Under the pieces are notes generated by a model. That model searched no databases, was not told where the DNA came from, and worked only from the letters and a program-made list of their open reading frames with translations. Shown here one piece after another: positions 11,129-58,005 of a DNA stretch of 64,000 nt. Position numbers and translations under genes: made by a program. Source of the DNA: Gymnopus androsaceus JB14 (lineage: Eukaryota > Basidiomycota > Agaricomycetes > Agaricales > Omphalotaceae); assembly GCA_009733575.1 (NCBI GenBank), contig ML769389.1, positions 62,001 through 126,000 of the forward strand. Reading direction: 5' to 3'. Positions within the stretch are counted from its first letter, which is position 1, and each line of letters starts with the position of its first letter.

Positions 11129-11197
11129 GTTAGACGATTGTCTCCTCTTGTCATCTGTTTTTACTTAGTCTCTGTTTGTATCTCTAAAAGCGTCCTT

Positions 11198-11704
11198 TCC
11201 ATGTATGTCAAGATATAATATATTCTTTCCTTTTTGCCTTTTTATCTTCGAGAGCGACTTGCTGAAGCTTTGACGCGTCGCCGTTATGCGACGCGTTCAA
11301 TGTAGTCACAAACGTGAAGTGATACGTGTTCTTTTCCCAACTTTGATAAGCGCAAATTAACCATCTGTGTGCCAAAGGTTCTGTCTTGACACTCGGGTCA
11401 AGCACACTGCATACTATATCTACACCCTCCATCACTTTCGAAAGTGAGTCAAGGTCGGTGAGTTGACCGACGACAACAGCTACATGGCTATTCGAATGTG
11501 GAGAATGGAGATAAAGCACAGGAAAAGAATCCTGGATAGAGGGCAAAGCATAAATTCTAACAAAATACTAACAACACAAGCGAACGCTTCCTCTTTTCGA
11601 CTTGTGTGGCAAATCCCAGCTCACAAGGAAGATGGCTGACGACTTGGGTAGAGACATCGGTTCGTCCTGTCCAGCTCCAAAGCTAGTTTTGACAAGAAAT
11701 TAGG
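11198..11704. repeat. Repeated flank R2
   Basis: This is the second copy of the block at 1951-2459, colinear over about 500 bp with small indels. It lies between the start of CRN copy C and the end of CRN copy B and probably holds the promoter of copy C. Its first 150 bp recur at 14056-14221. Confidence 0.85.
11208..11546 (-). pseudogene. Fragment of an NmrA-like NAD(P)-binding oxidoreductase
   Basis: An open frame of 112 codons contains VGQLTDLDSLSKVMEGVDIV followed by CSVLDPSVKTEPLAHRWLI. This pattern (D-x-x-S-L-x-x-x-x-x-G-x-D-x-V-x-S) follows the first Rossmann strands in NmrA/SDR-type proteins. The N-terminal dinucleotide loop and the rest of the protein are missing. The same sequence in R1 (1963-2330) and in R3 is frame-broken, which supports a decayed fragment carried along with the CRN duplication. 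Confidence 0.5.
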
Positions 11705-13975: not shown

Positions 13976-14055
13976 CCACCGGAACCTGACTCATGCGTAG
14001 CACGTTATCGAGCTAGATATGGTATGTCGGTGGTATGTCGGTTTCGAGCGTTCTT

Positions 14056-22151: not shown

Positions 22152-22450
22152 AAGTAATTATTTACTTCAGATGGAGTGAGCAGAAGGGAGGTAGTAATTA
22201 TTTACTACTTACCCCAGATTGAGTGCATGAAAGGGAGGTGGTAATTATTTACTACCTCCCCAGCTGAAGTGCATGGTAAATAATTACTACCAAGCAGATT
22301 AAGAAGGGAGGTGGTAGATATTTACTACCCAGATGGAGTGCATGGAAATAATTACTACCTCCTCCAGATGGAGTGCACAGAAGGGAGGTAGTAATTATTT
22401 ACCAATGAAAGCTGTGCCAAGCCACCCAGTAGTGAATAATTACTATGAGG
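22152..22450. repeat. Array of palindromic GGTAGTAATTATTTACTACC repeats
   Basis: Eight near-palindromic cores related to GGTAGTAATTATTTACTACC occur in 300 bp, at about 22152, 22186, 22233, 22275, 22306, 22344, 22383 and 22431. Most are preceded by a spacer of the type CAGATGGAGTGCACAGAAGG. Unit length is about 35-47 bp. Neighbouring cores alternate in orientation and could pair with each other. No coding potential is seen. Confidence 0.85.
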
Positions 22451-36668: not shown

Positions 36669-38259
<1,591 letters not shown>

Positions 38260-38650
38260 AGTATTGCCCGTTTGTTATATACTTCTGTTTTTCGATATCT
38301 GTTGTCGATTACTGCCACTGTGAATGCATTTCTTAGTCGCCCTGGTAGAAGTGCGAAATTGACGAAGGATGATGTTATCCTGAACAAAGCTCTTGCTTGC
38401 CATTCGTGACGGTGAAATTTCGTCCGAAAATCGAGATACTTGGCAAGTTTGTCGACCCTCATTAATATAATGGGATACTGTCGCGATGCCCCGAAGCTTC
38501 GGACTCTACTCGCTATGTATTTGAGAACTCTGACCGAACTGTTTATGGCTACAATGAGCTAGAGACTAAGAGTCATCTTGACGCAAATTTTAGGTGCAAG
38601 AAGGATTGTTCGTTTTCTGTCAATATTTGGGTCACTCATCCATTTCCATC

Positions 38651-38744
38651 GCCTTCTTAGCTCAGGGGTAGAGCGTTCCACTCGTACTGTGGCTGTACAG
38701 CATAGTCGTATGGAAAGGTCGCTAGTTCGAATCTGGTAGGAGGC
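38651..38744 (+). tRNA. tRNA-Thr (CGU) with 23-nt intron
   Basis: The acceptor GCCTTCT/AGGAGGC is identical to the other tRNA-Thr of this window. The D-arm is GCTC/GAGC, the anticodon stem TTCCA/TGGAA, the loop C-T-CGT-A, then an intron of 23 nt one base after the anticodon. The T-arm is GCTAG TTCGAAT CTGGT. The mature part is 71 nt. A canonical A-box (TAGCTCAGGGG) and B-box (GTTCGAATC) are visible. Confidence 0.87.
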
Positions 38745-39947
38745 ATAAGATGGTGAGAGCAATTGTTTTTCTTGTCATAAATTTTTTACTATTCATATGG
38801 TAATGGTAGAGTACTGTACTTCTTCCTTTCATGCGGCCTTTCATGCGGCCTTTATTTTTTAACGATGCTCTACCGCAATACAGCCGGAGACTGTAAATTC
38901 AACAGACCAATATACCATGACAGACTTGCAATCCACAATGAGTGCAGAGGTTACGCGCGTGGCTATTAAGTACTACTGGGCTGTTTTACAGCCCGCGTCA
39001 ATGAATTAGTGTCTATGTGAGTATGAGCATAGTACTTGCTTTCGGAGACTGCGCATGCTCACTGGTTCATGTTTTTTGGAACCTGGAATCAGTCGCTCAA
39101 TCGCTCTAGAGAACAATTCACTAACGTCATGAGATTAGTGTACGACAGGGCCCTCGGCCCATAAGTCAAACTCCTCTCGACGGTCACGTCAAGTGGGTTG
39201 ACAGTGTCTGCGGGATTTGCGTGAAAGGTCCAGGAAGGCCAAAAAACCGCACGAAGTTACCTAACAGAGTCTCGTCCTAATTCAGATCGGCTTGAAAGAG
39301 TGGGGAAGGGCAAGAGGTAGAAGGCAGCTGTCGTGCTCCTTTGAGTTTCTTTGACACCAGTTGGCGAGATAGGAAATTCGGTGATATTCCGATCATGTAA
39401 GTCTGTAAATGGTAACGAAAGTTTGCCTGCAAGTCGTTCATCCTCTCGGTCCAGGAGACTTTTGTCTCGGTATAGCACTCTCTCCGTAAAAATACATCTT
39501 GGTAACACTGCGTAGTCATGGATCGTTCAAACATTACTTACAGGCTTAAAACAGACTCCGATATGGCAAGCTCGCTTGCGTATCGATCTGCCCTTGAGAT
39601 AACTCCAAGCTATCCGTTAGAGCTTCAGTCAAGTCCTAATTCAGCGGTCTCTGAGCGACTTGAAGCACTAAGGACCTGAAATAGATAGGTGCCATTGACA
39701 GCGGTCAGGCAGCAAGTATCCAGAAGAATGTATCCAGAAGAATGTAGAAGGTTGTCAAACTTGTGATACTTAGCAAATGCGGCGCGTCTCGAGATGGCAC
39801 CGCCGTGTTTCCCACGTGCGACCAGTCCCCACTGTGATGCTATGCTATAACAGGCTATAACCCGGAACTTAACTAGAGCTCCCATCTTCCCCACTTGACC
39901 GAATACGCTATCCGTGCTCCAGAAGTCTTTGACGACGTACGTTCAAG
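38745..39947. other. Intergenic, small tandem duplications only
   Basis: No gene is supported. Short direct duplications are visible, CATGCGGCCTTT twice at 38830-38853 and GTATCCAGAAGAAT twice at 39716-39744. Confidence 0.45.
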
Positions 39948-40952
39948 ATGCGCAGCGCTATCAGGACAGTTTTGTTTTCTGTCCTCGTTATCGTCTCGGA
40001 GGCCTCCCCGTTATCTTCAACCTCATGGGAAGGAAGTCAGCGCATTGATTGGAGCACAAGCGTACAGGTCCCCATATCTGAGCGTAAGGGAGCAGTGACG
40101 GAGATTGACCTGAGCGCAGGATGGGTGGACCCCAGGATTCAAGGAGGCAGACTGCTTGATGTGAGTATACCCATTTCCTACGAAACTACGTCGATTGTAA
40201 TTCATTTGTAGTTCACAACTCCTCATAAAGGAGAGCCTCTCAACGTTATTGTGTCTGGTAAATCGGACCCATACGTGCTGACTGAAACTGGCTTCTCCGT
40301 CTATGTCAAGTAATTAAAAATCGCCATGTTCTCAAGACTTCTGACCAATCCCAATCCATAGATCTCTTGGCTTCTCAAGCGAGTGCCTTGGGCTGCACTT
40401 TGGTGCCATTCATCAAGCCAATCTTGGGGACGGAAACTATAGACAGGATGAACAGGTTCTTGCAAGACAATACTATTTCACAGGTGGATCCGATTGGGGT
40501 ACATGCTGGGAATCATTAGCAGGTACGCACGCGGTGTAAAACACGTCGTTTGGGGTCTTCCCCCATCTCCTCCTCCCCACGACTGACTCTTCATTTCCAG
40601 GCGGCAACCACTTCCGTGCGTGGAAGCAAAATGGTACCCAGGCTGACACTGGTGCATGGTTCTTGGGTGTCTCCAAGGAAGAGGTTTACTATATTCCTTT
40701 CATGTTGATCCACGATTCTCATGTCTTTTGTACCAGAACTCTGGCAAACACCACAAGATCATACCCGATGGATACAATATTGGCCGGGACTTTCTCGTCG
40801 GACAAGCCACTTCTCCGACACATTGGAATTCCCGCTGGTGGCAAGCAGAAGTAGAATGGGTCGAGGGTCTTCTCAAGCCAGGGAGTGACGGTGTTAACCA
40901 CGGGATCGAACAAGATGGATTAGTTGCGGTCCTCACCGTGAATCGCATTTAA
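39948..40952 (+). CDS. Conserved secreted fungal protein of unknown function
   Basis: Exons 39948-40160, 40212-40309, 40362-40522, 40601 to about 40684, and from about 40735 to 40952 join in frame. The start MRSAIRTVLFSVLVIVSEAS is a signal peptide. The rest is rich in Gly, Trp and Asn (GGSDWGTCWESLAGGNHFRA, NGTQADTGAWFLGVSKEE, IIPDGYNIGRDFLVGQA) and ends with GVNHGIEQDGLVAVLTVNRI. This ending recurs in an uncharacterised family of fungal extracellular proteins as far as I recall it. One N-glycosylation-type NGT site is seen. No catalytic residues are assigned. Confidence 0.7.
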
Positions 40953-41224
40953 GCAAGACGAAGTATCATCCATCTCTCCCTATTTGACTCTATATTACGA
41001 CGACATCCTATAATTACGACTATCTTGTCCCACTTCGTCCTTAGACTATCCTCATGTTACATACTATTCATCGCACCCCTCAATGCGCTCGTACAATATT
41101 CTAATCCTTTGTACACTTATTTATGTATACTTACTTAGACCCGCCTGTTCGTTATTCGGGGTATAGAAGGGTTCAACTGCGTTGTATTTATCCTAAATAC
41201 TTATATGATCTGCTTGTAATTCAC
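40953..41224. other. Convergent 3' intergenic region
   Basis: This is AT-rich sequence between two gene ends. Nothing else is recognised. Confidence 0.4.
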
Positions 41225-42229
41225 TTATTTCGTCCACGTATCCTTAATTTCTTCAGCATAACTTTGGAATGTTCTTTTTCCCTTCCAAATTTCTTCCTTC
41301 TCCTTTTCTCCAGGAGCTCCATCAAGGAAAACCCTCTCCTCGCCGCCACTTTTGACTATATCTTCGAATGTGGCCATTGCTTCGGCATACGGCTCAGGCA
41401 TCAATCTCATTGCGTGCTCTTTAAACTCCGCGCGCTGGAGGTTGCGATGGGTGATGGGCCGACCAGTGACGGATGAGAGAATCTTGGCGACCTAAGAAAC
41501 GAGCAGAGGGAGTAAGTAAATCGATAATCACCTCGAGCAGCCTGAAGGAACTTACATCCGCATAATTGAGCAACTCGGGGCCAAACACAATGTATGACCC
41601 GTTCAGCGGTTCCTTCTCAGTCATGGCACGGAACGCAGCTTCTGCAATATCTCGCGCGTCGACGAACCCGACCTTAGAAGAGCCTGTGGAGGAGATGACT
41701 GTCACCGTTTGTGGAGTCGGCGTAGAATACGAAGCCGGGGGGAGGGTTGAAGTTTTCTGCAGAGAATGGTTATCAGTTCAACGTAGCAAAGGGCTTGCGA
41801 AAATGAAGAGATGCACGTACGGAAGAACCACGAAGGCCGAATCGATGCATACTCTACGCCCGACTCCAGGAGGAATTTGTGCACTGCTCCATGCCCAAGG
41901 TCACCCAGAGGCATCAAGGAAGCACTGAGGAGAACAAATCGTTTCACGCCCTTTTCTTTGGCAGCAAAATCGATGAAAGGTTTCATAGCTTGGAGCATAT
42001 CAATAGACGGAGGAGGCGTCAAGAAGATACTTTGTATAACGTCCGACGCTCCCTTTGCATGAGAAAAGGCATTATCAAATGTCGAGGGGTCATTCCAATC
42101 GAATGCAACGCCGGTAAGTGGGGAAGGAACATTCCCCGAACGGCTGGTAGAGAGGGCAGGGATGTTGGAGGCGTGAAAGAGTTGAGAGAGCGGGAGCCCG
42201 ACTTTTCCAGTGCCAATGATGAGATGCAT
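41225..42229 (-). CDS. EasG/NmrA-like NAD(P)-binding oxidoreductase, possible frameshift
   Basis: The start MHLIIGTGKVGLPLSQLFHA is a Rossmann dinucleotide loop (GTGKVG). Later come VKRFVLLSAS, HKFLLESGVEYASIRPSWFF, VGFVDARDIAEAAFRAMTEK, SYIVFGPELLNYADVA and a C-terminal tail ending TFQSYAEEIKDTWTK. This matches the ergot-alkaloid EasG-like family of NAD(P)-binding reductases, which also occurs outside alkaloid pathways. No neighbouring pathway genes suggest an alkaloid. Exon 2 seems to contain one extra base near 41705 (GGTGACAG) relative to the copy at 51 kb (GGTACAG), which reads straight through; this may break the gene. Part of it is duplicated, inverted, at 51021-51325. Confidence 0.7.
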
Positions 42230-42303
42230 AGTGGACGATAACGATGTAGTGTAAGTATATGATTTGGGTCTGAAGCAGCCACTTACTTCAAGTTATATAC
42301 CTC

Positions 42304-42416
42304 CCCTGGTCTTATTAATTAATAATACCCGCTAGCAAAACGGTAAGCCAAGATGTACGCTGTCCCCTGGTCTTATTAATTCGAGCAAACATAAGTAAGC
42401 CAAGATGTACGCTGAG
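42304..42416. repeat. Two-unit tandem duplication
   Basis: CCCCTGGTCTTATTAATT ... GTAAGCCAAGATGTACGCTG occurs twice (42304-42363 and 42365-42416), about 60 bp and 52 bp long. It lies between the EasG-like gene and gene X, in the rest of an otherwise gene-free stretch (42230-42990). Confidence 0.75.
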
Positions 42417-42990
42417 CTCATCTTGCTGATATCTGAATGGTCAGTGATCCGACAGAGGTAGCTATAACCATGTAAACGCGTCAGCTCCGTCGGATCATCC
42501 GGGTTTAGTGACATATTTCCCTTGTCTCCCGTAGCAGACTCTCGCAAGCAGCTTGCTAATTAGAATATTTCCCCCACTATCGCAAAGTTAGGACTACCTT
42601 CGATTCAATGATGCTAGACAATTAACCTGATTTTATTTCCCATCCAGGCTCGATTCACTTGGCTCTCGCTGGATGGGGAAACGGAGATCTAGTCCTTTGA
42701 GACGCCCAAAAATGTGACTGGAATTACATGGACCTTCAAACTATATAACCTAAAAGTAGAACTCTGTACACGCAAAGAAACAACCGAAGAACCGAAACGT
42801 GAACTGCAAAACCAACCATTGAGGACGCGTAAACATAATTACAGCCTGTGTAATTGAACATCGAAGGAAAGTCAAGTGGGCCCGCAAACGACAAAACGAT
42901 AATGACGAATAAGAATAACAAGAGCAAGATAATGAAAGATGCAACTAATAAATAGAGACAGTCCAAATGCGAGGAGGAATAGATCAACTT

Positions 42991-44869
42991 TTAGAACGGC
43001 TTTGGAACATCAGCTGTTGGGCTCGGTATATTTGGCCGCATTGCAGACAATACCTGCGAGGGAAGCTGGAAGGCTTTTCGGTTGGATGTTTCATAGGTGG
43101 CCGCTGGCATACTCGGCAGGGGAGGCGGATCATCGTCTCTCAAGTACTGCGAATAGATCGACAGGGGGTATGGCGATACGAGCGAGTCTGTCATAGGATG
43201 GCGGAGCGGAGCGGGCTGCAACCACGACAGGGTTCATAAACCTCATGTTTCATATTAGGAAGGATTTGGGATACCCGCCTCGAATGGACAAAAGACGGTG
43301 CGTATCTGTCCGATGGAACAAATGAAGGTGGTCTGTTGAGAAAGGGATACCTGCTGAGGCTGATATCGTCCGAAAAGAGGGTACTTGGGATGGCTGGCGA
43401 TTTTTCACGCTTGTCATTAGCACGGTCAAAACGGAAATGTTCACGAAAGAATGTAGAGAGCTGAGTGGCCTGACCGTCGGTAGTACTCGACATCGCCGAA
43501 GATATCCGCGAATCAGCACTATGAAGGTCTCCGGAAAAGAATGTGGAAAGACGAGTGCCTTGTTCATCTGGCTGCGTCTCCTGCGAATACTGTGAGCTAT
43601 CTGAGTTTCTATCGCATTGGAGCTGTGGAAGTGGGTTAAGGTGATAAACAGACGACTTTTCAGGGGTAAAGAATGAAGATTCCGTTGGGCTACCGATTCG
43701 CAGCTTCAGGCCAGAAAGACGAGCATACGATGTGGAAAGTAGCGCAGTCTGTGAATCTCTGTTGCGCATAGAGAGATTATCGGGATCCTCTCTGCCTGGA
43801 TCGGTGAGCAAGGAGAAGAACACGACCAACACTTGGAGGTTGATGATAATCAGAGAGCTTGAGGCCTGTTGTGTATTGTAAGCACGATAAGTCTCATTCC
43901 ATTATTATATAGCACCTACTTGAATGCTGGCCGTGAACCGCGCCAACAAGCCAGTGTTCTGAATGAGATATACAGCATGTGCAATACTTCCTCCAGAAAT
44001 TAACAGGCTTCCTATGAGGATGGCTAAAATAACTAAACGGCGTAGCGCAACAGTTTTAAAAATCGCGATAATTCTGATCAACATTGTAACCAATGCGATG
44101 TTGGAAAAGAATTCCACTGTTAAACCCGAGTCATTGCGACGGCAAATTTGAGGAAGGCGAAACTTACAAGCAATCTCGGTTGCCATTATAGCTTGATTTC
44201 CTGTGTGGGAGGTTTAGCAGGCATTATAATACGCCGATCATACCAAGTACCTGAGCACTGGAGATTCATCCCTCCTAGAGATTCCCAGCTAGTGTCGCTG
44301 TGGCATAACATTATTTCTTGTATAAAGAGCGCGATACCCATCAAAGAAAACACAGCAGATGCGATATAGGCGATGGGACGAATGGAACGAGGAACAATTC
44401 TGAGCAAAGAACAGACTAGACTGAGGCGAGTCAGCCTACAAAACGAACGTTAGATATCATTTCAGAGACCAAGCTAATATCGAACTCACCATACGATTGC
44501 TATGAACGTGCCACTCAAGACCCAATAAGCCATGAGCCTATTATGTTGAGACTGGTTGAGCGGGCCCACACCTGAAATACATCAATTAAAGAGCAAAAAG
44601 ATTGTATCTTGAGGACCGACCCAAGTAGTCTGTGTATATCCAGAGACAAGGTAGAGCCACAAAGGATAATAATCCAGATAGAGCTGCCAACACATCATCC
44701 ACCCAAAGCTGTCGTTTCTTGGCCCTGTATATAACTCTGAGAAGAGTAATGATCTGTCCAACGCCTGCGAGAACAGTCGCTGTAACTAAAGAAACAATTA
44801 GTAAAGTCCAAAGTAAGATGTGTACTACTAGAACTCACTTCTCCATGTCGTGATACTAATAAGAACCAT
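42991..44869 (-). CDS. 7TM rhodopsin-like integral membrane protein (gene X)
   Basis: Exons read in order MVLISITTW, TATVLAGVGQILTLLRVIYR, KKRQFWMDDVFAALSGLLSL, PLNQSQHNRLMAYWVLSGTF, WLTRLSLVCSLLRIVPRSIR, a segment around FSLMGIALFIQEIMLCHSD, then SNIALVTMLIRIIAIFK, LVILAILIGSLLISGGSIAH and VLVVFFSLLTDPG, followed by a long Ser-rich cytoplasmic tail ending in PKPF at 42991. The order of helices and the RA-KRQFW-DD signature fit the fungal rhodopsin-domain integral membrane proteins. Two or more short introns lie within the helices. A frame change near 43200-43220 before the last 70 residues is uncertain. An inverted copy (48796-50702) and an inverted 5' fragment (51664-52004) exist. Confidence 0.65.
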
Positions 44870-45029
44870 TATCATCAAAAAAGAAAAGAAAAAGGCTGCA
44901 GACTTGCTGCAAGCCGCCAAAAATTGTTAGAAAGGAGATTGAAATGGAAAACCAGAGTTGTAAATCGTGCATATAACATTGAGTTTGAATCTGTGAGTGC
45001 GATTCAATTATTCCTGCACATCTTTCATC

Positions 45030-47073
45030 GCATCTTGTTCTTGTTGGCGAAATACCGCCAACAGCTGCGCTAGCATCTCCTGATCATGTTCTTTGCGTAT
45101 TTCTCTCCGCCTTCAACACCAACTGGCAGGTTATTTCATCGTTGATCGTTACTGGTAAACCACAGTGCCTTGCTTCCCGCCCAGTCAAAGTCTATCGCAA
45201 GTAGTTGGCCACTACTGTCAATGAGGATATTTGGTTCCCGCAGATCCCCATGCACATAGTTTTCAGAGTGGAACTTTGCTACTGCATTTCTGAAGTTATC
45301 CAGCCCCACGTCTGTCAGCTTTGCATTATCTGACTGTTCAACATAACGGGTAACGACGCAGTAGAGGCCAACATCTCGCACCCACTCGCAGTACAGCAGT
45401 TCCACCGCAGCTCCCTCCACCTCCATCAACTGGTGTGCTTCACGGCAATAACGATGTGTGAATTTTACCATGACTCGTATGGTTGATTCGTCAGAAGCAA
45501 CAGCATCAGCCAGGAAGATGGTGCAGTGATGGAGATAACCATTGTAACACTCAATGTACCTCAAGCTGAACGCTTGACCCGAGAAGGAAGTGAAAGAACA
45601 AAAGTGTGGTGCTGGGGATAGCTGTCCAGACGGAGGTGCTGTGAAGGAGGATAGGTTGAGGTAGTACGTGTTAACTGATCCAAACATTCCCTCAGAGTGA
45701 GGAATACATGCGCGACCGACAGGCCTGCACATGACGAAAATCAGAGGCAGGATCTTCCGGAATATTCTCGTACGATTGGAGAGGAACAAAGGAGATAGTG
45801 TCCGTGAGTTGCTCGGAAATAACTCCATCAAGATAAATGGCACCAGAAACCGAGAAACTATACCCTGGAATGGCCAATAAGAAGGCAGGGATGCAAGAAA
45901 CTTTGCGCAATTCAGAAAGCTGTGGGACTGTTAAGCACGTCTGGACAGCAAACGAGGAAGAGAAAGGAGCACCTCAGGTCGCGTAGAGATTACCACATAG
46001 TCCCTGTGAGCTTGATCGAGAACATCGCAATTTCCATAAAATCCGTTTTTCAGCTCTGCTAGCAAGGTCGAAACAGCGTTGTACCCATCAGTCGTTGGAT
46101 CATAAAGTCCACAGCTTGTCCGACGATTCCCATCCGGTAAGATCTTGTTGTCAGCTACCCAGACTTCAGTTCTTGACATGGCACCAGGTCCCAGAAAATA
46201 CTCGACCACTGCAGCAATCGCTCTCCGGCGTTTTCCTTCGTCATCATAGTAAGCGCTACCGAGGCGACAGAGCCTATGCCCAGCTCGCATCTGCTTAGGT
46301 GTGAGTTCGCGCTTCTCCGAGAGACGTCGGCGGAAAAGAGGAAAGATAGGATGATATACACCTAGAGAGGGTCCAGTGAGAGACTGCGGACGTCCAGCAC
46401 GTACAGCATCAACACAGTCGCTCGTTTGATTGAGTATCAGGTTCTCATTCTTGGCACCATCCGAAGGGCTCATATTTTTGGAGCGGATTGAAGAGGCGAT
46501 ACTGCGAGCTATTGGAGAATTGATTAGCTCGGAAGTGAAGACAAATTGCTAAAGGACAAACTTTGAGGCTTGTCTCGAGGTTTGCTACCGCTCTCTGGTC
46601 GTTCTTCGGTTTCTTGGATCGATGCAAGAGGTTGGGGTACAACGGGTTCTATGATGAATCAGTTCGAGTCTTCGAAGTACAGGATGTTAACGCACCACAC
46701 AAGACAAACAAGTAAAGTTCATTGTCGGGGTCTTTCCTCCCATTTCTGAGAGGGAGAAGAGCCTCGCTAATTTCCAAACGAACGCAGTCCTTCTGCAGAA
46801 ACTCATCCCACTTGGCACAAGCACCGGTTATTTGTCGCACTGTCTGGTGTGAGGCTTTCAGACATGAGTCAGATTCAAATGCACTTCAAGGCGGAATTTG
46901 AGAACCTGTTTAGCGTAGATCGGTCGCCATTCTTTGAATTTCGAAGAGATATCGTCGGTTAAATTTTCAGCGGTTGCATCGTTGTCGTCGAACGGAATGA
47001 AGCTGGCATCGAAAGGTGAATGGGTGGCGCGGTCTATGAGAGCGTATCGATACTTGTGCGTTATGGCAGGCAT
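45030..47073 (-). pseudogene. Kinase-like gene Y, left copy, frame-broken
   Basis: The mirror copy of 53757-55853. The first exon MPAITHKYRYALIDRATHSP (47073) reads on through SSKFKEWRPIYAKQ without the stop seen in the right copy. Further in, single bases are missing near 45938 (stop after RLLSRRA), 45715 (stop after QACRSRMYSSL) and 45180 (DWAGSKALWFTSN). These breaks fall before and inside the kinase-like domain, whose catalytic segment VHGDLREPNILIDSSG is still visible. About 22 bases of the intron after exon 1 are also gone. It is not likely to make a full protein. Confidence 0.8.
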
Positions 47074-47448
47074 TACTTGGGCGAAGCGAGTGAGATGTTA
47101 TTATAATAGGGGCTCAAAATTCAAATTCCTGCTTCGAAGATCGACCAATAGGCTCTTTGACATCTACTGTGGTGCATATAGACTTACATGGCAACTATTT
47201 TGACATCTAGCAGCATTGCAATGGCAAGCTAATGGCTTCGGGGTGCCCTCTACTGAGGTCTTCGCAAGGGACGCTCCAAGCTAGATTTTTAGAATAGACT
47301 TATCGATTGTCTGATACATTTTCCTGCTTTTTGGGTGCTTTGGTAACAGAAAGGCACAAACAAGTAAACAAGTGGGTTATAACCGATAGTCGGGGTTGAA
47401 TCTAATGTACACTTTTTCATATTGAAATTCGTGGTAGTCACAATTAGC

Positions 47449-48538
47449 CTACTCTTTCAATTCCACAATCTGGTCAAATCCGGGATATTCTGGGAGATTC
47501 AGCTCGAATTTCTCTTCCAATGACCTGTAGAAAATGCAATTACGAAATGAGGATATTAATCCTAGTCAACCTAGCTCACTTGGGAATGAATCTTCCTCCA
47601 AGAAAATGAATACCACTGAATGAACGCACGCCAAGTTTTGGAGCGGTCAGGCTGACGAGAACGTCGGGTCGAAGTCCAACGCCTTCCACATTTCCTTCTT
47701 CGACGTCCCACCCAGAAGGAATGTCTACGGAAACGATAGGAAGGCGAGAATCGGTCAAGAGAGGTAGAACAGAGTCGAATGGTGCACGGATAGGCCCTTT
47801 GAAAGAGAATCCAAAGATGGCGTCCAGAATTACGTTCGTAGTGGGTAGCGCATCACGCAAAGCAGTTGTATCATCAATAGTCTTGATCTTCATGTTATCG
47901 CATTGTGTTTTGAGACGCTGCGAGGAAAGGCTATTAGCGCATAATTATGATAGCATTGCTGAAGTGATTGCCTGATATATTTCTTTGGAGCCAGGCTAGA
48001 ATTACCGTTGCAGTTAGTGAATCATCATCCGCTGTAGAATTTCAGTTTACCTTGGGCAAAAAAATCGTCGGCGTATACCCGAACATACCTAAACCGTATT
48101 TGGTGAGGAATAATGCTTTCGTACATACGGAATTTCCAAACCAAGATGACGAGCGGCGACCAGGCCATCTCCTCCTTCCAAGAAAGCAGTTACTCGAAGC
48201 TCAGATTATTGAAAGACTCGAGATACACCTTGATTTCCAGGACCGCAGCACACTAGAACGTTGGGGTACTTGTTTCTATCATATACACGAGCTAGAGCCT
48301 GTGCACACGACAGTCCGGCAAGTTCCATGAGCTAAGGTGTTAAATTGCTTAATGTGTAGTAAAGTGATCGAAGTCGAGTTGAGAATACCTGATCAAGACT
48401 GAAAGCCCCCGCCTGGCTCATGAGCTCTTCATCGATCTAAAAGAGCAAAACTCAGTAATTTTCGTGGACTTGAGTTTGAGAATCGTTACTTGTTGTGCGA
48501 CTCTTGCGGTTAGATATCTCAACGACATGGTAGGAGAA
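47449..48538 (-). CDS. naxe: NAD(P)H-hydrate epimerase, left copy
   Basis: This is a YjeF_N-type epimerase that converts damaged R-NAD(P)HX to the S form for repair. [13 protein letters not shown] (start 48538) joins [36 protein letters not shown], then the signature [16 protein letters not shown] across an intron, [11 protein letters not shown], and [20 protein letters not shown] with [15 protein letters not shown], ending DQVVELKE at 47449. All conserved blocks are present and in frame after splicing of about six introns. One intron uses a GC donor (CAG then GCAATC). It is nearly identical to the right copy; the one difference noticed, an extra base near 47947, is within an intron. It is divergent from gene X copy 2. 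Confidence 0.85.
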
Positions 48539-48795
48539 ACAGAAGCTGGTAGTAGTACGTCATATGTATTTTTATAGCGCCCGCCGCGATGCTTATTCGT
48601 CTCGCTTTTACCTCCGTCACCAGATCCACCAGATCCTGAAACCATCGGAGACTCTGGTAGTCATGACTGCACTCACAGATTTCAAACTCAATACTGGATG
48701 CACGATATGCACGATTTGCAACTCTAGTTTTCCATTTCATTCTCCTTTCTAACGATTTCTGGCGGCTTGCAGCAAGTTTGCGGCCTTTTTTGATA
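48539..48795. promoter_or_regulatory. Divergent promoter region, NAXE and gene X copy 2
   Basis: A 257-bp gap between two divergent start codons. The same arrangement, inverted, occurs at 52005-52288. Contains GCACGATATGCACGATTTGC, a short direct repeat. No defined factor site is claimed. Confidence 0.45.
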
Positions 48796-50702
48796 ATGGT
48801 TCTTATTAGTATCACGACATGGAGAAGTGAGTTCTAGCTACTAGTAGTATGCATCTTACTTTGGACTTTACTGATTGTTTCTTTAGTTACAGCGACTGTT
48901 CTCGCAGGCGTTGGACAGATCCTTACTCTTCTCAGAGTTATATACAGGGCGAAGAAACGACAGTTTTGGATGGATGATGTGTTTGCAGCTCTATCTGGAT
49001 TGTTATCCTTGGTGGCTCTACCTTGTCTCTGGATATATACAGACTACTTGGGTCGGTTCCTTCCTCAAAATACAATCTTCTTGCCCTTTGATTGAGGTAT
49101 TTTAGGTGTGGGCCCGCTCAACCAGTCTCAACATAATAGGCTCAGTGGCTTATTGGGTCTTGAGCGGCACTTTCATAGCAATCGTATGGTGAGTTCGATA
49201 TTAGCTTGGTCTCTGAAATGATATCTAACGTTCGTTTTGTAGGCTGACTCGCCTCAGTCTAGTCTGTTCTTTGCTCAGAATTATCCCTCGTTCCATTCGT
49301 CCCATCGCCTATATCGCATCTGCTGTGTTTTCTTTGATGGGGATCGCGCTCTTTATACAAGAAATAACGTTATGCCACAGCGACACCAGTTGGGAATCTC
49401 TAGGAGGGATGAATCTCCAGTGTTCAGGTACTTGGTATGATCGGTATATTATAATGTCTGCTAAACCTTCGACACAGGAAATCAAGCTATAATGGCAACC
49501 GAGATTGCTTGTGAGTTTCACCTTCCTCGAATTTGCCGTCGCAATGACTCAGGGTGAAAACAGTGGAATTCTTTTCCAACATTGCATTGGTTACAATGTT
49601 GATCAGAATCATCGCGATTTTTAAAACTGTTGCGCTACGCCGTTTAGTTATTTTAGCCATCCTCATAGGAAGCCTGTTAATTTCTGGAGGAAGTATTGCG
49701 CATGCTGTATATCTCATTCAGAACACCGGCTTGCTAGCGCGGTTCACAGCGAGCATTCAAGTAGGTGCTATATGAAAATGAACTACTTACCGTGCTTACA
49801 ATACATCGACAGGCCTCAAGCTCTCTGATTATCATCAAACCTTCAAGTGTTGGTCGTATTCTTCTCATTGCTCACCGATCCAAGCAGAGAAGATCCTGAT
49901 AATCTCTCTATGCGCAACAGAGATTCGGAAACTGCGCTACCTTCCAAATCATATGCTCGTCTTTCCGGCGTGAAGCTGCGAATCGGGAGTTCGACGAAAC
50001 TTCGCAGACATTCTTCGTTCTTTGCTCCTGAAAAGTCGCCTGTTTATCACCTTAATCCACTTCCACAGCTCCACTACGATAGAAACTCAGATAGTTCTCA
50101 GTACTCGCAGGAGACGCAGCCAGATGAACAAGGCACTCGTCTTTCCGCATTCTTTTCCGGAGACCTCCATAGTGCTCGTTCATGGATATCTCCAGGGATG
50201 TCCAGTACTACCGACGATCAGGCCACTCAGCTCTCTACATTCGTTAGTGCACATCTCCGTCCTTGCCCTGCTGATGACAGGCGTGAAAAATCGCCAGCCA
50301 TCCCAAGTACCATCTTTTCGGACGATATCAACCTCAGCGAGTATCCCATTCTCAACAGGCCACCTTCATTTGTTCCATCGGACGGACACGCACCGTCTTC
50401 TATCCATTCGAGGCGGGTATCCCAAATCCTTCCTAACATGAAAACTGTGAGGTTTATGAGCCCTGTCGTGGCTGCAGTCCGCTCCGCGACGCCATCCATA
50501 ACAGATTCGCTCGTGGCACCTTATCCCTTGTCAATTTATTGCGCAGTACTGGAGCGACGATGATCCGCTTCCCCCACCAACTATGCCAGCGCCCATCTAT
50601 GAAACACCCAACCGAAAAACCTTCCAGCTTCCTTCGCAGGTATTATCTGCAATGCGGCCAGATACACCGAGCCCAACCGTTGATGTTCCAAAGCCGTTTT
50701 AA
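48796..50702 (+). pseudogene. Gene X, inverted copy, frameshifted
   Basis: This matches 42991-44869 in inverse orientation. The same start (MVLISITTW), helices and tail (ending TPSPTVDVPKPF at 50702) are recognisable. One base is inserted near 49143 (CTCAGTGGC against CTCATGGC), which shifts the frame just before the third helix. An intron donor near 49505 and tail codons also differ. Tail residues have many substitutions relative to the left copy (for example NRDSETALPS against NRDSQTALLS), so this pair is older or less constrained than the epimerase pair. It is probably inactive. Confidence 0.7.
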
Positions 50703-51020
50703 AAGTCGCGTCGATCTAAGCATTCCTCCTCGCATTTGGACTGTCTCTATTTCAATCCATTACTTATTCGTCATTGTTCTTTTGCCGTTTGCGATCCCAC
50801 TTGACTTTCCTCCAATGTCCAATTACACAGGCTGTAATTATGTTTACGCTTCGGTTCTTCGTTTGTTTTTTTTTTTTTTACTTTGGCGTGTACAGAGTTC
50901 TACTTTTAGGTTATATAGCGTGCAGTTCCGTGCAATTCCAGTCACATTTTTGGGCGTTTCAATGGACTAGATCTCCGTTTCATCAGCGTCGAGCGAGAGG
51001 AGGCTGGGAGACTGGGAGCG

Positions 51021-51325
51021 CAACCCTCCCCCGGCTTCGTATTCTACTCCGACTCTACAAACGGTACAGTCATCTCCTCCACAGGCTCTTCTAAACTCGG
51101 ATTCGTCGACACGCGAGATATTGCAGAAGCTGCGTTCCGTGCTATGACTGAGAAGGAACCGCTGAACGGGTCATACATTGTGTTTGGCCCCGAGTTGCTC
51201 AATTATGATATAAGTCTCTTCAGGTTTCTCAAAGTGATTATCGATTTATTTACTCCCTCGGCTCGTTTCATAGGTCGCCAAGATTCTCTCATCCGTAGCT
51301 GGTCGGCCCGTCACCCATCGCAACC
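51021..51325 (+). pseudogene. Fragment of the EasG-like oxidoreductase (exon 2-3)
   Basis: This is an inverted copy of about 41430-41745. VGFVDARD is here LGFVDTRDIAEAAFRAMTEK, then SYIVFGPELLNYD and the following intron. The N-terminal Rossmann exon is absent and the 3' end is cut at CATCGCAACCT, where it fuses to a piece of gene Y. Confidence 0.85.
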
Positions 51326-51655
51326 TGGGCATAGGCTCTGTCGCCTCGGGAGCGCTTACTATGATGACGAAGGAAAACGCCGGAGAGCGATTGCTGCAGT
51401 GGTCGAGTATTTTCTGGGACCTGGTGCCATGTCAAGAACTGAAGTCTGGGTAGCTGACAACAAGATCTTACCGGATGGGAATCGTTGGACAAGCTGTGGA
51501 CTTTATGATCCAACGACTGATGGGTACAACGCTGTTTCGACCTTGCTAGCAGAGCTGAAAAACGGATTTTATGGAAATTGCGATGTTCTCGATCAAGCTC
51601 ACAGGGACTATGTGGTAATCTCTACACGACCTGAGGTGCTCCTTTCTCTTCCTCG
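51325..51655 (+). pseudogene. Internal fragment of kinase-like gene Y
   Basis: A 331-bp piece equals 54572-54902, from GGGCATAGGCTCTGTCGCC to CTTTCTCTTCCTCG, with very few changes (for example Trp for Arg in NRWTSCG). It is joined to the oxidoreductase fragment upstream and to the gene X 5' fragment downstream. A chimeric frame runs through both parts from 51144 to 51677. Confidence 0.9.
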
Positions 51656-51663
51656 AGCCACCA

Positions 51664-52004
51664 GCCTATTATGTTGAGACTGGTTGAGCGGGCCCACACC
51701 TAAAATACCTCAATCAAAGGGCAAGAAGATTGTATTTTGAGGAAGGAACCGACCCAAGTAGTCTGTATATATCCAGAGACAAGGTAGAGCCACCAAGGAT
51801 AACAATCCAGATAGAGCTGCAAGCACCATCATCCATCCAAAAACTGTCGTTTCTTGGCCCTGTATATAACTCTGAGAAGAGTAAGGATCTGTCCAACGCC
51901 TGCGAGAACAGTCGCTGTAACTAAAGAAACAATTAGTAAAGTCCAAAGTAAGATGCATACTACTAGAGCTCACTTCTCCATGTCGTGATACTAATAAGAA
52001 CCAT
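51664..52004 (-). pseudogene. 5' fragment of gene X
   Basis: A third copy of the first exons of gene X. The start codon at 52004 and the segments VTATVLAGVGQILTLLR and QFWMDDGA (one base changed against WMDDVFAA) are followed by truncation after the exon with PLNQSQHN at 51664. It is divergent from the right NAXE copy, mirroring the left pair. Confidence 0.8.
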
Positions 52005-52288
52005 TATCAAAAAAGGCCGCAAACTTGCTGCAAGCCGCCAGAAATCGTTAGAAAGGAGAATGAAATGGAAAACTAGAGTTGCAAATCGTGCATATCGTGC
52101 ATCCAGTATTGAGTTTGAAATCTGTGAGTGCAGTCATGACTACCAGAGTCTCCGATGGTTTCAGGATCTGGTTGGGATCTGGGTGACGGAGGTAAAAGCG
52201 AGACACGAAAGTGACGAATAAGGCAATCGCGGCGGGCGCTATAAAAAATACATATGACGTACTACTACCAGCTTCTGTTTCTCCTACC

Positions 52289-53367
52289 ATGTCGTTGAGA
52301 TATCTAACCGCAAGAGTCGCACAACAAGTAACGATTCTCAACTCCAAGTCCACGAAAATTACTGAGTTTTGCTCTTTTAGATCGATGAAGAGCTCATGAG
52401 CCAGGCGGGGGCTTTCAGTCTTGATCAGGTATTCTCAACTCGACTTCGATCACTTTACTACACATTAAGCAATTTAACACCTTAGCTCATGGAACTTGCC
52501 GGACTGTCGTGTGCACAGGCTCTAGCTCGTGTATATGATAGAAACAAGTACCCCAACGTTCTAGTGTGCTGCGGTCCTGGAAATCAAGGTGTATCTCGAG
52601 TCTTTCAATAATCTGAGCTTCGAGTAACTGCTTTCTTGGAAGGAGGAGATGGCCTGGTCGCCGCTCGTCATCTTGGTTTGGAAATTCCGTATGTACGAAT
52701 GCATTATTCCTCACCAAATACGGTTTAGGTATGTTCGGGTATACGCCGACGATTTTTTTGCCCAAGGTAAACTGAAATTCTACAGCGGATGATGATTCAC
52801 TAACTGCAACGGTAATCCTAGCCTGGCTCCAAAGAAATATATCAGGCAATCACTTCAGCAATGCTACATAATTATGCGCTAATAGCCTTTCCTCGCAGCG
52901 TCTCAAAACACAATGCGATAACATGAAGATCAAGACTATTGATGATACAACTGCTTTGCGTGATGCGCTACCCACTACGAACGTAATTCTGGACGCCATC
53001 TTTGGATTCTCTTTTAAAGGGCCTATCCGTGCACCATTCGACTCTGTTCTACCTCTCTTGACCGATTCTCGCCTTCCTATCGTTTCCGTAGACATTCCTT
53101 CTGGGTGGGACGTCGAAGAAGGAAATGTGGAAGGCGTTGGACTTCGACCCGACGTTCTCGTCAGCCTGACCGCTCCAAAACTTGGCGTGCGTTCATTCAG
53201 TGGTATTCATTTTCTTGGAGGAAGATTCATTCCCAAGTGAGCTAGGTTGACTAGGATTAATATCCTCATTTCGTAATTGCATTTTCTACAGGTCATTGGA
53301 AGAGAAATTCGAGCTGAATCTCCCAGAATATCCCGGATTTGACCAGGTTGTGGAATTGAAAGAGTAG
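52289..53367 (+). CDS. naxe: NAD(P)H-hydrate epimerase, right copy
   Basis: The second complete copy of the epimerase. Its start is at 52289 ([13 protein letters not shown]), the signature [16 protein letters not shown] is split by an intron near 52595, and the stop is at 53365-53367. The 105-residue exon segment from [16 protein letters not shown] to GGRFIPK has the same protein sequence as in the left copy. No damage was found. Either copy could supply the enzyme, which normally is single-copy and acts with an ADP/ATP-dependent dehydratase that is not in this window. Confidence 0.85.
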
Positions 53368-53756
53368 GCTAATTGTGACTACCACGAATTTCAGTATGAA
53401 AAAGTGTACATTAGATTCAACGCCGACTATCGATTATAACCCACTTGTTTATGCCTTTCTGTTACCAAAGCACCCAAAAAGCAGGAAAATGTATCAGACA
53501 ATCGATAAGTCTATTCTAAAAATCTAGCTTGGAGCGTCCCTTGCGAAGACCTCAGTAGAGGGCACCCCGAAGCCATTAGCTTGCCATTGCAATGCTGCTA
53601 GATGTCAAAATAGTTGCCATGTAAGTCTATATGCACCACAGTAGATGTTAATATTCTACTGTAATTCTGTCAAAGAGCCTATTGGTCGATCTTCGAAGCA
53701 GGAATTTGAATTTTGAGCCCCTATTATAATAACATCTCACTCGCTTCGCCCAAGTA

Positions 53757-55853
53757 ATGCCTGCCATAACGCACAAGTATCGATACGCTCTCATAGACCG
53801 CGCCACCCATTCACCTTTCGATGCCAGCCTCATTCCGTTCGACGACAACGATGCAACCGCTGAAAATTTATTCGACGATATCTCTTCGAAATTTAAAGAA
53901 TGATGGCGACCGATCTACGTTAAACAGGTTCTCAAATTCCGCCTTGAAGTGCATTTGAATCTGACTGTTTCTCTGTAGTCCCCGAATCATGTCTGAAAGC
54001 CTCACACCAGACAGTGCGACAAATAACCGGTGCTTGTGCCAAGTGGGATGAGTTTCTGCAGAAGGACTGCGTTCGGTTGGAAATTAGCGAGGCTCTTCTC
54101 CCTCTCAGAAATGGGAGGAAAGACCCCGACAATGAACTTTACTTGTTTGTCTTGTGTGGTGCGTTAACATCCTGTACTTCGAAGACTCGAACTGATTCAT
54201 CATAGAACCCGTTGTACCCCAACCTCTTGCATCGATCCAAGAAACCGAAGAACGACCAGAGAGCGGTAGCAAACCTCGAGACAAGCCTCAAAGTTTGTCC
54301 TTTAGCAATTTGTCTTCACTTCCGAGCTAATCAATTCTCCAATAGCTCGCAGTATCGCCTCTTCAATCCGCTCCAAAAATATGAGCCCTTCGGATGGTGC
54401 CAAGAATGAGAACCTGATACTCAATCAAACGAGCGACTGTGTTGATGCTGTACGTGCTGGACGTCCGCAGTCTCTCACTGGACCCTCTCTAGGTGTATAT
54501 CATCCTATCTTTCCTCTTTTCCGCCGACGTCTCTCGGAGAAGCGCGAACTCACACCTAAGCAGATGCGAGCTGGGCATAGGCTCTGTCGCCTCGGTAGCG
54601 CTTACTATGATGACGAAGGAAAACGCCGGAGAGCGATTGCTGCAGTGGTCGAGTATTTTCTGGGACCTGGTGCCATGTCAAGAACTGAAGTCTGGGTAGC
54701 TGACAACAAGATCTTACCGGATGGGAATCGTCGGACAAGCTGTGGACTTTATGATCCAACGACTGATGGGTACAACGCTGTTTCGACCTTGCTAGCAGAG
54801 CTGAAAAACGGATTTTATGGAAATTGCGATGTTCTCGATCAAGCTCACAGGGACTATGTGGTAATCTCTACGCGACCTGAGGTGCTCCTTTCTCTTCCTC
54901 GTTTGCTGTCCAGACCGTGCTTAACAGTCCCACAGCTTTCTGAATTGCGCAAAGTTTCTTGCATCCCTGCCTTCTTATTGGCCATTCCAGGGTATAGTTT
55001 CTCGGTTTCTGGTGCCATTTATCTTGATGGAGTTATTTCCGAGCAACTCACGGACACTATCTCCTTTGTTCCTCTCCAATCGTACGAGAATATTCCGGAA
55101 GATCCTGCCTCTGATTTTCGTCATGCGCAGGCCTGTCGTGTCGCGCATGTATTCCTCACTCTGAGGGAATGCTTGGATCAGTTGGACACGTACTACCTCA
55201 ACCTATCCTCCTCCTCAGCACCTCCGTCTGGACAGCTATCCCCAGCACCACACTTTTGTTCTTTCACTTCCTTCTCGGGTCAAGCGTTCAGCTTGAGGTA
55301 CATTGAGTATTACAATGGTTATCTCTATCACCGCACCATCTTCCTGGCTGATGCTGTTGCTTCTGACGAATCAACCATACGAGTCATGGTAAAATTCACA
55401 CATCGTTATTGCCGTGAAGCACACCAGTTGATGGAGGTGGAGGGAGCTGCGGTAGAACTGCTGTACTGCGAGTGGGTGCGAGATGTTGGCCTCTACTGCG
55501 TCGTTACCCGTTATGTTGAACAGTCAGATAATGCAAAGCTGACAGACGTGGGGCTGGATAACTTCGGAAATGCAGTAGCAAAGTTCCACTCTGAAAACTA
55601 TGTGCATGGGGATCTGCGGGAACCAAATATCCTCATTGACAGTAGTGGCCAACTACTTGCGATAGACTTTGACTGGGCGGGGAAGCAAGGCACTGTGGTT
55701 TACCCAGTAACGATCAACGATGAAATAACCTGGCCAGTTGGTGTTGAAGGTGGAGAGAAAATACGCAAAGAACATGATCAGGAGATGCTAGCGCAGCTGT
55801 TGGCGATATTTCGCCAACAAGAACAAGATGCGATGAAAGATGTGCAGGAATAA
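53757..55853 (+). CDS. Kinase-like gene Y, right copy, stop in exon 1
   Basis: The main frame from 54381 to 55853 is open for 490 codons. Its C-terminal part is kinase-like: a beta-3-type Lys in IRVMVKFTHRYCREAHQ, catalytic loop YVHGDLREPNILI (H-x-D-x-x-x-x-N kept) and metal-site segment AIDFDWAGKQGTVVYPV with DFD replacing DFG. This HGDLR/DFDWAG pattern is common in a basidiomycete family of kinase-like proteins. Upstream exons read MRQITGACAKWDEFLQKDCV and LPLRNGRKDPDNELYLF. The first exon (ATG 53757) has a 3-base insertion near 53902 making an in-frame TGA after SSKFKE, so the protein may begin downstream. The left copy lacks this stop but has three frameshifts elsewhere. Confidence 0.65.
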
Positions 55854-55861
55854 TTGAATCG

Positions 55862-56432
55862 TACCTTTCTATTCAAGTTTAGCTTTGTTATATGGCAGAT
55901 ATCATAATGAATTCGACATCTTCAAACTCACTCCGAATCGCGCATTACAGATCTTGAAGACTATGAGACCGAGTTTCAGACGCGGGGTCTCTGTCGAGCT
56001 CCCATGCGAAAACTTCCCAACAAACTCTTTCGAGTCTGAATATTCATGTGGGCGGTATTAAACGATGGCGGGCACTCGTTCGGCTGGCATCCGATAACCA
56101 ATTCAATATTGGGTGGCGCGCACTTTTAAGTTTTTGGCCTTCTTGAAGTTGCCTTGAAGAACTTGGGGGTTCTTCCTGACTTTGACTGGGTTGAATCTAA
56201 TATCCGTGACAGAATGAGTTGTTGAGTGCAGAGGCTGAGGCTTTTAACTGGCGAGTACTATATTTATTTGGAGGACTCGGAGGATGCCTAGAAACGCCAA
56301 ATTTCAAGACGGTTGGTTAGCACGACTTGCGGTATAACCCATGAGTTGTTTCCAAATTACGATACTCGCTCGATATGCTGCTCGATATGTCGGCAGAGAA
56401 ATGAAGCGCCTATCAACTCTTTCTTTCCCACC
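55862..56432. other. Unique flank next to the duplication
   Basis: Homology with the left arm ends at 55861. No gene or repeat is seen before the Orc6-like start. Confidence 0.45.
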
Positions 56433-57803
56433 ATGTCCCAGCACGACGATCGTTTGAAGCTGCTCTGTGGTGACAGCGGCGAAACGCTCCAGAGAGCTAA
56501 AGAACTTACGCACTATGCAAATGCGAAAACATCACAAGGCTCAGGATTTGAGCTAAAAAATTCAATAGGCCTGCCAGGTGCTTGTGCTCTAATCGCGTCT
56601 GAACAGTAGGTCTTCAATCACGCGTATGAAGGCTTTTCGATTCTGAAGACACATTTCAGATTGAAGAATACAATAGTAGACTTTGAAAGTGCTCGAGCAA
56701 ACGCCTGCTTGTCTGAAGCAGCATTCAGCAAATGCGTCAGCGAAGTTAGAGCTGCTCTTGCTCTTGACGCGTCGAAACAGCAGGATAACCGACGACAAAC
56801 GCGCTTTGGGTCCAATAAACTCGCATACCAGCTTCTCATCACAAAGTACGGGCTTGACCAGAAATACGGAAATCGATTTCTTGATTGGTGCAAGACAGCC
56901 GAATTCACTTATATTCAGCTGGGCAAGGGTAATAATATCGACCGAGATGGCCCAAAGATCAAGTATGCTATATTCTACTGGGTGTGTGGAGTCTTGAAAG
57001 TGCGTTATTACTGCCTTGGATTCTTTCTCATCTAATGAACCTTATTCCAGTTTGACTTGGGGTCTTTTCTGAAAGATGAGCCTCATTCCGACAAGGCGCG
57101 AAGCATTTCCAAAGTTATGGACCAACATTGTGCTGTAACGCGGGCTTCCATCCTGGAAGAAAGCAAACGTTCTGGTACTATCACCACTCGAACTTCGCCG
57201 CGTAAACGGTTATTGAGGGAGCTTCCTAGCAAGGACTCTCCGAAGAAGCGGAAACTATCTGCTGAGCCTCAGACGGAGGAGAGTGCTATCTTCAGGCTGT
57301 CGGATGTCCCAGAGGAAGCACCCGTAAAGCCTTCTACCTCTCCACGAAAGTCGCCTGCGAAACGGGCACTTCGAGAACTTCCGACTGGAGACTCGCGCAA
57401 TAAGACTAATGCGCCCATTGTCGCGCATGATTCGGATGTGGAAATGTTGGCACCAGAAACGCCATCGAAAACGCGTCGTAACGGAACCGCCGCAACGGCC
57501 GCGTTTCTCTCCGCACTATCCAAAACCGCCACCCAGCCTTTTCCAGCTCACCGCTCCTCTCATCATGACTCTCCACCCCCCTCGCCGTCCAAGAAAAGGG
57601 TTGTGGAAGCCAGGGATTTCGACCCTCTTGTTGCGGACGATGATGATGATTCTCCGGACGATTTTGTGCATACCTCCTCAGTTCGGAGACGCTTTCGCCC
57701 AGTGTTCTTGGATCGAAAGCAATGGGCCGCTCAGGATCCATATCTCCTCAAACTCCGTAACAGCATTGAGAAGAGAGCTAATGGGCATTCGTTGAGGGTA
57801 TAG
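56433..57803 (+). CDS. orc6: Origin recognition complex subunit 6-like protein
   Basis: The first part, LQRAKELTHYANAKTSQGSG, IGLPGACALIASE, VDFESARANACLSEAAFSKC and SEVRAALALDASKQQ, fits the TFIIB-like cyclin fold at the start of Orc6. A second cyclin-like stretch (NKLAYQLLITKYGL, IKYAIFYWVCGVLKF) follows. The middle is a basic, disordered linker with repeated TSPRKxxLRELP blocks and possible CDK sites (SPRK, SPKK, TPSK). The end RPVFLDRKQWAAQDPYLLK is a short conserved C-terminal helix of the type that contacts Orc3. At least two introns (after SEQ and after VLK) are removed in frame. The identification rests on fold order and C-terminal motif, not on a search. Confidence 0.7.
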
Positions 57804-58005
57804 TCTTTCTTGTCAAAAATTGTATATGGATTCTACATGATTGCTATCTAATGAATGCGATGTCCAGACACTATGTATAAATTAACGAGTCCCACCATGT
57901 ATATTAGAGTTTCTCGTAGTGTACTTGTTGAAAGAGTGGGTGGTTATTGGCGACGAGATTGTCCTGCATACATGTCGACCCGGCTAGTAGGAATAAAAAC
58001 AATAT
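57804..58005. other. Convergent intergenic gap
   Basis: Short 3' flank shared by two converging genes. Nothing else is recognised. Confidence 0.4.

Follow-up and report, generated by a model that had tools for sequence, protein, structure and literature searches.

Rearrangements that join an inversion to an inverted duplication are known mainly from human disease loci and from Drosophila inversions. In the available text of PMC10766186, the 1-0-1-2-1 class of human inverted copy-number variants is derived from eroded inverted triplications; NHEJ, MMEJ or MMBIR acting at non-repetitive sequence are named as ways in which it may form, and junctions of low homology are described. Staggered-break inversions leave inverted duplications, of which a truncated copy decays, as far as the accessible part of PMC5080602 goes. 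A third kind of arrangement is formed by the inverted triplications assigned to ODIRA, such as that of yeast SUL1 (PMC10766186 and PMC4689423, in the parts available). A literature search on inverted duplications with a palindrome and gene conversion in fungal genomes yielded no paper, and titles on inverted duplications with a palindrome in basidiomycetes offered nothing relevant; absence from print is not claimed. The locus described here is a compact, base-resolved example from a basidiomycete, in which an older duplication serves as an internal clock.

Location of the locus and search for further copies

Gymnopus androsaceus is an agaric of the family Omphalotaceae. The window, which is the whole stretch of 64,000 nucleotides analysed, comprises bases 62001-126000 of contig 7 (793,092 bases) in an 83.27-Mb assembly of isolate JB14 with 934 contigs. 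In the part of PMC3961408 available, JB14 serves as a litter fungus. The search for a second haplotype or further copies in the 83-Mb assembly was performed with the flanks (37000-41430 and 55700-60000) and with 41000-45000, 45953-46870 and 46870-48720 as queries. No near-identical copy of the arms or flanks was found outside the locus. The weaker matches detected there were relatives of an NmrA-like gene with at most 83% identity, relatives of a kinase-like gene with 68-72% (one of its matches, of 75 bases, reaches 84%), a tRNA-gene stretch of about 100 bases and short repeats. At the protein level, homologues were found in Lentinula, Rhodocollybia, Collybiopsis and others; homologues of NAD(P)H-hydrate epimerase (NAXE) exist in Lentinula, Rhodocollybia butyracea and Collybiopsis.

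Arrangement of the repeated blocks

Self-comparison and pairwise alignments revealed the block order L - P - Q - P' - q' - P2'' - Q'' - R, with block limits accurate to a few bases. P (41439-45000, plus strand) is the first copy of an old duplication of an NmrA-like gene and a gene designated X. It is followed by Q (45001-48668) and by P' (48669-51326, minus strand), the inverted second copy of P. Next come a filler q' of 331 bp (51325-51655, plus strand), which is a third copy of a piece from the interior of the kinase-like gene, then P2'' (51656-52131), a third and partial copy of P material, and finally Q'' (52132-55861), which is Q inverted.

Two pairs of inverted repeats result from this order, and in BLAST self-comparison both lie close to where the original prediction had placed them. 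The younger pair, D, is made up on the left of Q and the adjoining part of P', and on the right of P2'' and Q''. Its left arm (45000-49144, plus strand) carries the kinase-like gene, the gene for NAD(P)H-hydrate epimerase (NAXE) and the 5' part of a second X gene, and its right arm (51662-55861, minus strand) is the counterpart of 49144-45000. By BLAST, 45000-49150 matches 55861-51656 over 4224 columns with 97.2% identity, 29 mismatches and 91 gap positions. Of 4126 bases aligned globally, 42 are substituted (about 99% identity with gaps disregarded), and there are 18 gaps, 11 of them of a single base, two of 3 bases and five of 7-22 bases; a slightly longer alignment of D contains 44 substitutions and 19 gaps.

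The other pair, P and P', is more diverged. Its main BLAST match joins 42678-44974 to 50981-48705 (2340 columns, 88.2%) and continues with 41439-41749 against 51326-51021 (92%); by global alignment there are 205 substitutions in 2249 bases, about 91% alike by substitution. This repeat had been predicted as one stretch, 41430-44990 against 48660-51325; it is present, but not as a single block, since P' lacks 928 bp equivalent to 41750-42677. A separate small repeat was noticed at 42520-42566, and it may merit more attention than the duplication. The fused fragments that had been predicted were found at 51325-51655, the third kinase-gene piece, and at 51656-52095, where 44528-44974 is present once more, as a third copy (89.6% by BLAST). 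At most informative sites of the alignment, P2'' groups with P' and not with P.

The repeats are real in the assembly, and chance is excluded as their source: 8933 inverted 14-mer matches were counted in 41200-55900, compared to a mean of 2.7 and a maximum of 9 in 50 first-order Markov simulations. They do not form a simple palindrome, for about 2.5 kb rather than a short spacer separates the 99% arms. These arms flank an inverted spacer, 49145-51326, which is the remaining part of P' and is single copy except for its old paralog P. The four genes of the predicted block do recur in inverted orientation, but not as a mirror image of four whole genes, because the second NmrA copy is a fragment of about 306 bp and the third X copy is a 5' fragment. 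Nor was support obtained for the view that such structures are rare outside mating or subtelomeric regions; the window begins 62 kb into contig 7, and no TTAGGG tandem was found in the first 10 kb of that contig.

Genes of the duplicated blocks

The NmrA-like gene, for an NAD(P)-binding protein, lies at 41225-42229 on the minus strand; it has several exons, and its frame is disrupted in this copy. It had been labelled EasG-like. A resemblance does exist, with 119.8 and 45.6 bits for TIGR03649 (EasG) on two exon pieces, but both scores are below the cut-off of 256.4, which applies to the whole protein. Seven related loci of nearly full length, 76-83% identical at the DNA level, occur elsewhere in the genome, and one paralog on contig 45 shows about six single-base gap sites. 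The truncated NmrA fragment of about 306 bp found by BLAST at the end of P' occupies 51021-51326 on the plus strand.

X specifies a protein with a fungal rhodopsin domain. The first copy, X1, extends over approximately 42991-44994 on the minus strand, and its deposited protein P0001 scores 40.2 bits with PF20684 (cut-off 27). The second copy, X2, is found at approximately 48663-50700 on the plus strand, divergent in orientation from the left NAXE copy; its frame is disrupted. Its ATG at 48663 is a model with no homologue confirming it. The alignment places the third copy, a 5' fragment, at 51656-52137 on the minus strand. With one exon as query, matches to X in this genome were obtained at this locus only, and one outside relative was found, a protein of Collybiopsis confluens with 39% identity. 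Between X1 and X2, exons 3-7 differ by 25 substitutions, 19 of which fall at reckoned third codon positions; exon 2, with two substitutions and a gap, was left out of this count. By this distribution, both copies were constrained in exons 3-7 after the old duplication. In exon 8 the substitutions by codon position are 31, 34 and 32, without bias, and there are five indels. Given this unbiased exon and the frame disruptions of X2, selection on X is not traceable to the present. The intact or broken state of X was also considered as a clue to polarity and dropped, X2 being frame-disrupted too.

NAXE, a housekeeping gene, is present as two intact copies of 8 exons each, at 47449-48528 (minus strand) and 52289-53367 (plus strand), and only these two were detected in the genome with the largest exon as query. 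Their reading frames are intact, YjeF_N (PF03853) scores above its cut-off, and two of the 699 coding bases are substituted between them, silently in one case and with an exchange of Val and Ile in the other.

The Pkinase match of the kinase-like gene is weak (22.5 bits, below the cut-off), and the genome contains 42 matched places, five of them at this locus; a relative elsewhere in the genome shows 72% identity over 440 bases, and a protein relative of 39% occurs in Pleurotus. The right copy (54306-55853, plus strand) contains an open frame of 515 codons, and the frame is open only in this copy, which adjoins R. The left copy (approximately 45008-46550, minus strand) is disrupted by several single-base gaps. 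Ten of 12 single-base gaps between the arms are bases missing from the left arm. Other duplicates in the window show such gaps as well, with 13 in 2.7 kb (1949-4667 and 11197-13906) and five in 2.2 kb of P and P'. As the density in these duplicates and in the contig-45 NmrA paralog is similar, part of the gaps may be consensus errors, and the left kinase-like copy may reflect either real decay or such errors. The gaps were therefore dropped as proof of pseudogene decay, and the open frame beside R is weak evidence for the two-step origin proposed below.

Junctions and filler

Three junctions are sharp and share only 0-4 bp. At J1 (44997-45000), the alignments show the homology of P to P' and that of Q to Q'' ending together. 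The sequence reads ...CTGTGAGTGC up to the junction and GATTCAATT... beyond it, while P' has ...CTGTGAGTGCAGTCATG and Q'' has ...AAGGTACGATTCAATT; the overlap is 1 bp, or 4 bp with one mismatch. J2 (51325-51326), from P' to the filler, shares 2 bp, and J3 (51655-51656), from the filler to the right arm, 0-1 bp. In the model with the X2 start codon, J1 would deprive X1 of its first two codons. P0001 as deposited begins at a later Met, in which case nothing but upstream sequence would have been lost to J1. In the present-day sequence X1 lacks its upstream end and the second NmrA copy its end, which may reflect a deletion next to the inverted spacer.

By BLAST, the filler is direct to 54571-54901 and inverted to 45953-46283, with 99.1% identity. 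At three of its 331 bases it differs from the other two copies, which are identical at these positions, so that it appears to be of the same age as D. A segmental duplication with inversion and sharp ends, as originally predicted, is supported, its junctions being nearly homology-free, and the filler copied from nearby fits the template switch that had been proposed. One palindromic event does not agree with the divergence of the two repeat pairs. By their substitutions, about 1% in D versus about 9% in P and P', these differ greatly in age.

A probable two-step origin and its alternatives

From the blocks, their orientations, relative ages and junctions we infer the ancestral order, the order of events and a mechanism. 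A two-step rearrangement is the probable explanation, with an old duplication of the NmrA-X pair followed by a much younger inversion and inverted duplication on the side of NAXE and the kinase-like gene. The first step would have doubled the NmrA-X pair, with tandem copies as the probable outcome, and the order would then have been L - P - P^ - NAXE - kinase - R. Truncation of both P and P' hides from direct view whether that step was tandem or inverted. In the second step, the P^-NAXE-kinase segment would have been inverted and its P2-NAXE-kinase side, that is D with 4.2 kb, copied simultaneously, so that what remained of P^, now inverted, came to lie between two oppositely oriented copies of D. 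The 331-bp kinase piece would have been copied into the inner junction in this step, and sequence between P and P^ lost.

The polarity of the second step is suggested by J1. Because both homologies end together at 45000, Q'' and R were probably neighbours from early on and J1 arose later, and the ancestral order was deduced from this junction logic. An old J1 would make it a coincidence that the young copy of Q ends no more than a few bases from it. A J1 that arose after X1 had been working also suits the constraint on exons 3-7 and the modelled loss of the X1 start. An alternative that leads to identical final blocks and ages has the old event place P' in inverted orientation beyond Q (L-P-Q-P'-R), with a young backward copy of Q-P2' and the filler then inserted between P' and R by template switching. 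It finds a point in its favour in the filler, which sits on the P' side, but it requires exactly this coincidence, with the end of the copied segment at most a few bases from the old junction of P and Q. It would also have X1, truncated already by the old event, keep its constraint on exons 3-7, which is conceivable from the later start codon of P0001. We regard this alternative as doubtful. Improbable, too, is a single inverted triplication (ODIRA or DUP-TRP/INV-DUP) of the whole NmrA-X-NAXE-kinase segment, whose palindromic junctions eroded and in which later conversion kept only the Q and P2 arms alike. Its three passes, forward, inverted and forward, match the topology, and the available text of PMC10766186 describes low-homology junctions as common among such variants. 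There is also a hint of conversion, in that the arms show no difference over 838 bases (54077-54914), where about 9-13 would be expected from the mean density, and are identical at the three sites where the filler differs. The probability is 0.00015 with uniform placement and 0.0045 after clustered differences are merged. A single event should have produced three passes of equal age, but P and P2 of the first pass diverge from the inverted pass by about 9%, and P2' from P2'' by about 1%. Conversion would have to be assumed that took in P2' and P2'' and yet spared P2 and P2', which are separated from each other by only about 4 kb.

An assembly artefact, in which haplotypes of a dikaryon or chimeric reads were joined in opposite orientation, was also considered. 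Alleles might well differ by about 1%, as the arms do, and the consensus quality is imperfect. Neither the mono- or dikaryotic state of JB14 nor its sequencing method was found in the literature; the available part of PMC8480192 names Illumina and PacBio for its own new genomes, a set that may include G. androsaceus. Such an artefact is nevertheless unlikely. With 0-4 shared bases the junctions would seem to offer no overlap for a join by the assembler, and the inner one contains filler derived from nearby sequence. The assembly yielded no near-identical second copy of either flank, and no N occurs in the window. Besides substitutions, indels of 7-22 bases distinguish the arms.

The long identical run may be due to gene conversion, to chance together with constraint, or to consensus smoothing of near-identical repeats. 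A far-reaching but very improbable reading would make the arms a live inverted repeat, with gene conversion between them and a possible flip of the intervening 2-kb segment that puts the divergent NAXE/rhodopsin promoter region into two alternating contexts in different nuclei of the mushroom.

Comparison with known rearrangement classes

The two-step rearrangement is best read as the pattern 1-0-1-2-1, DUP/INV-NML-DEL, of the human inverted copy-number variant nomenclature. A staggered-break inversion with fill-in could have produced it, and so could microhomology-mediated template switching or a short-lived inverted triplication that eroded. The filler suggests a template-switching step; the acting pathway is not decidable from sequence. 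Like DUP/INV-NML-DEL at human Factor 8, the locus has at least one junction almost without homology (PMC10766186, available text). In contrast to the human variants, it is of kilobase scale, its copies are about 1% diverged and its ancestral state is reconstructed, and whereas two human examples have one junction in long repeats (PMC10766186, 24, 25, as far as available), all three junctions here share only 0-4 bp.

Drosophila staggered-break inversions are far larger than the mushroom case. They resemble it in that duplicates of one breakpoint sequence stand, in opposite orientations, at the two ends of the inverted segment, and in that the truncated one of two gene copies decays and its partner stays intact, according to the accessible part of PMC5080602. 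At the present locus, duplicates are inverted at both ends of the inversion, which is the half of this signature that can be observed in the rearranged order. The Drosophila inversions described there are polymorphic; here the inverted single-copy part measures only about 2.2 kb and is accompanied by the 331-bp filler. With the ODIRA triplication at yeast SUL1 (PMC10766186, PMC4689423, in the parts available) the locus shares the forward-inverted-forward order of three partial copies, but here one copy, the first, considerably predates the remaining two, and palindromic junctions are absent.

The locus is therefore a well-resolved case of a known class, and knowledge of the mechanism is unchanged by it. 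Its outcome is two intact NAXE genes, an X1 truncated at its modelled first exon, and fragments in place of the second NmrA copy and the third X copy. A single event may thus double one gene, here the sole NAXE gene that was detected, while a second gene is truncated and fragments are left behind.

A small dispersed repeat in the NmrA-X duplication

In P, the first copy of the old NmrA-X duplication, a small repeat unit beginning with TTGTCTCCCGTAG is located at 42520-42566, within a stretch that is absent from the inverted second copy, P'. Many copies of this unit are dispersed in the genome. A search with its 23-base pattern, allowing at most one mismatch, yielded 41 matches, not counting the copy in the window, versus none for the reversed pattern used as a control. 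Including the window copy, 26 copies were inspected, the other 25 being drawn from the 41 matches, at 24 loci, all of them exact. Nine of these 26 are solo units of about 41 to 53 bases placed between direct repeats of at least 9 bases, and the window copy is flanked on each side by ATATTTCCC as direct repeat. Five have direct repeats of 6 to 8 bases only, and at 12 direct repeats are absent, several of these 12 extending into a longer common body. The copy on contig 82 (131598-131682) measures 85 bases and has long inverted ends; a 9-base direct repeat was not found there. The dispersed repeat, which includes units lacking inverted ends, has the look of a transposable element of very small size that duplicates 9 bases of its target site. 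At 22184-22275, a unit of about 47 bases (AAGGGAGGTAGTAATTATTTACTACCTCCC...) occurs twice in tandem; both units look palindromic and resemble a MITE.

Gene arrangements and other duplications

The start codons of the NAD(P)H-hydrate epimerase gene NAXE (48528) and of the second rhodopsin-domain gene X2 (48663, as modelled) appear to lie about 134 bases apart, the genes being apparently divergent. The interval between them is a possible shared promoter that the rearrangement doubled, with one interval per copy (48528-48663 and 52137-52289).

At positions 1-1125 a 126-base unit is repeated in tandem about 8.9 times, with 84% matches, and an open frame (189-1256) overlaps the array, which suggests putative WD40 blades. 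A 15-blade WD40 protein is described from G. androsaceus JB14 in PMC9218822. A direct duplication of about 2.7 kb (1949-4667 and 11197-13906) shows 92% identity with 13 single-base gaps over its length, and more partial copies lie near 10521-11028 and 13493-14003.

Among the NmrA paralogs, L012/L046 (contig 45, about 42.6-43.7 kb) contains approximately six single-base frame disruptions and could represent either a pseudogene or a locally poor consensus, while the remaining paralogs are mostly in-frame.
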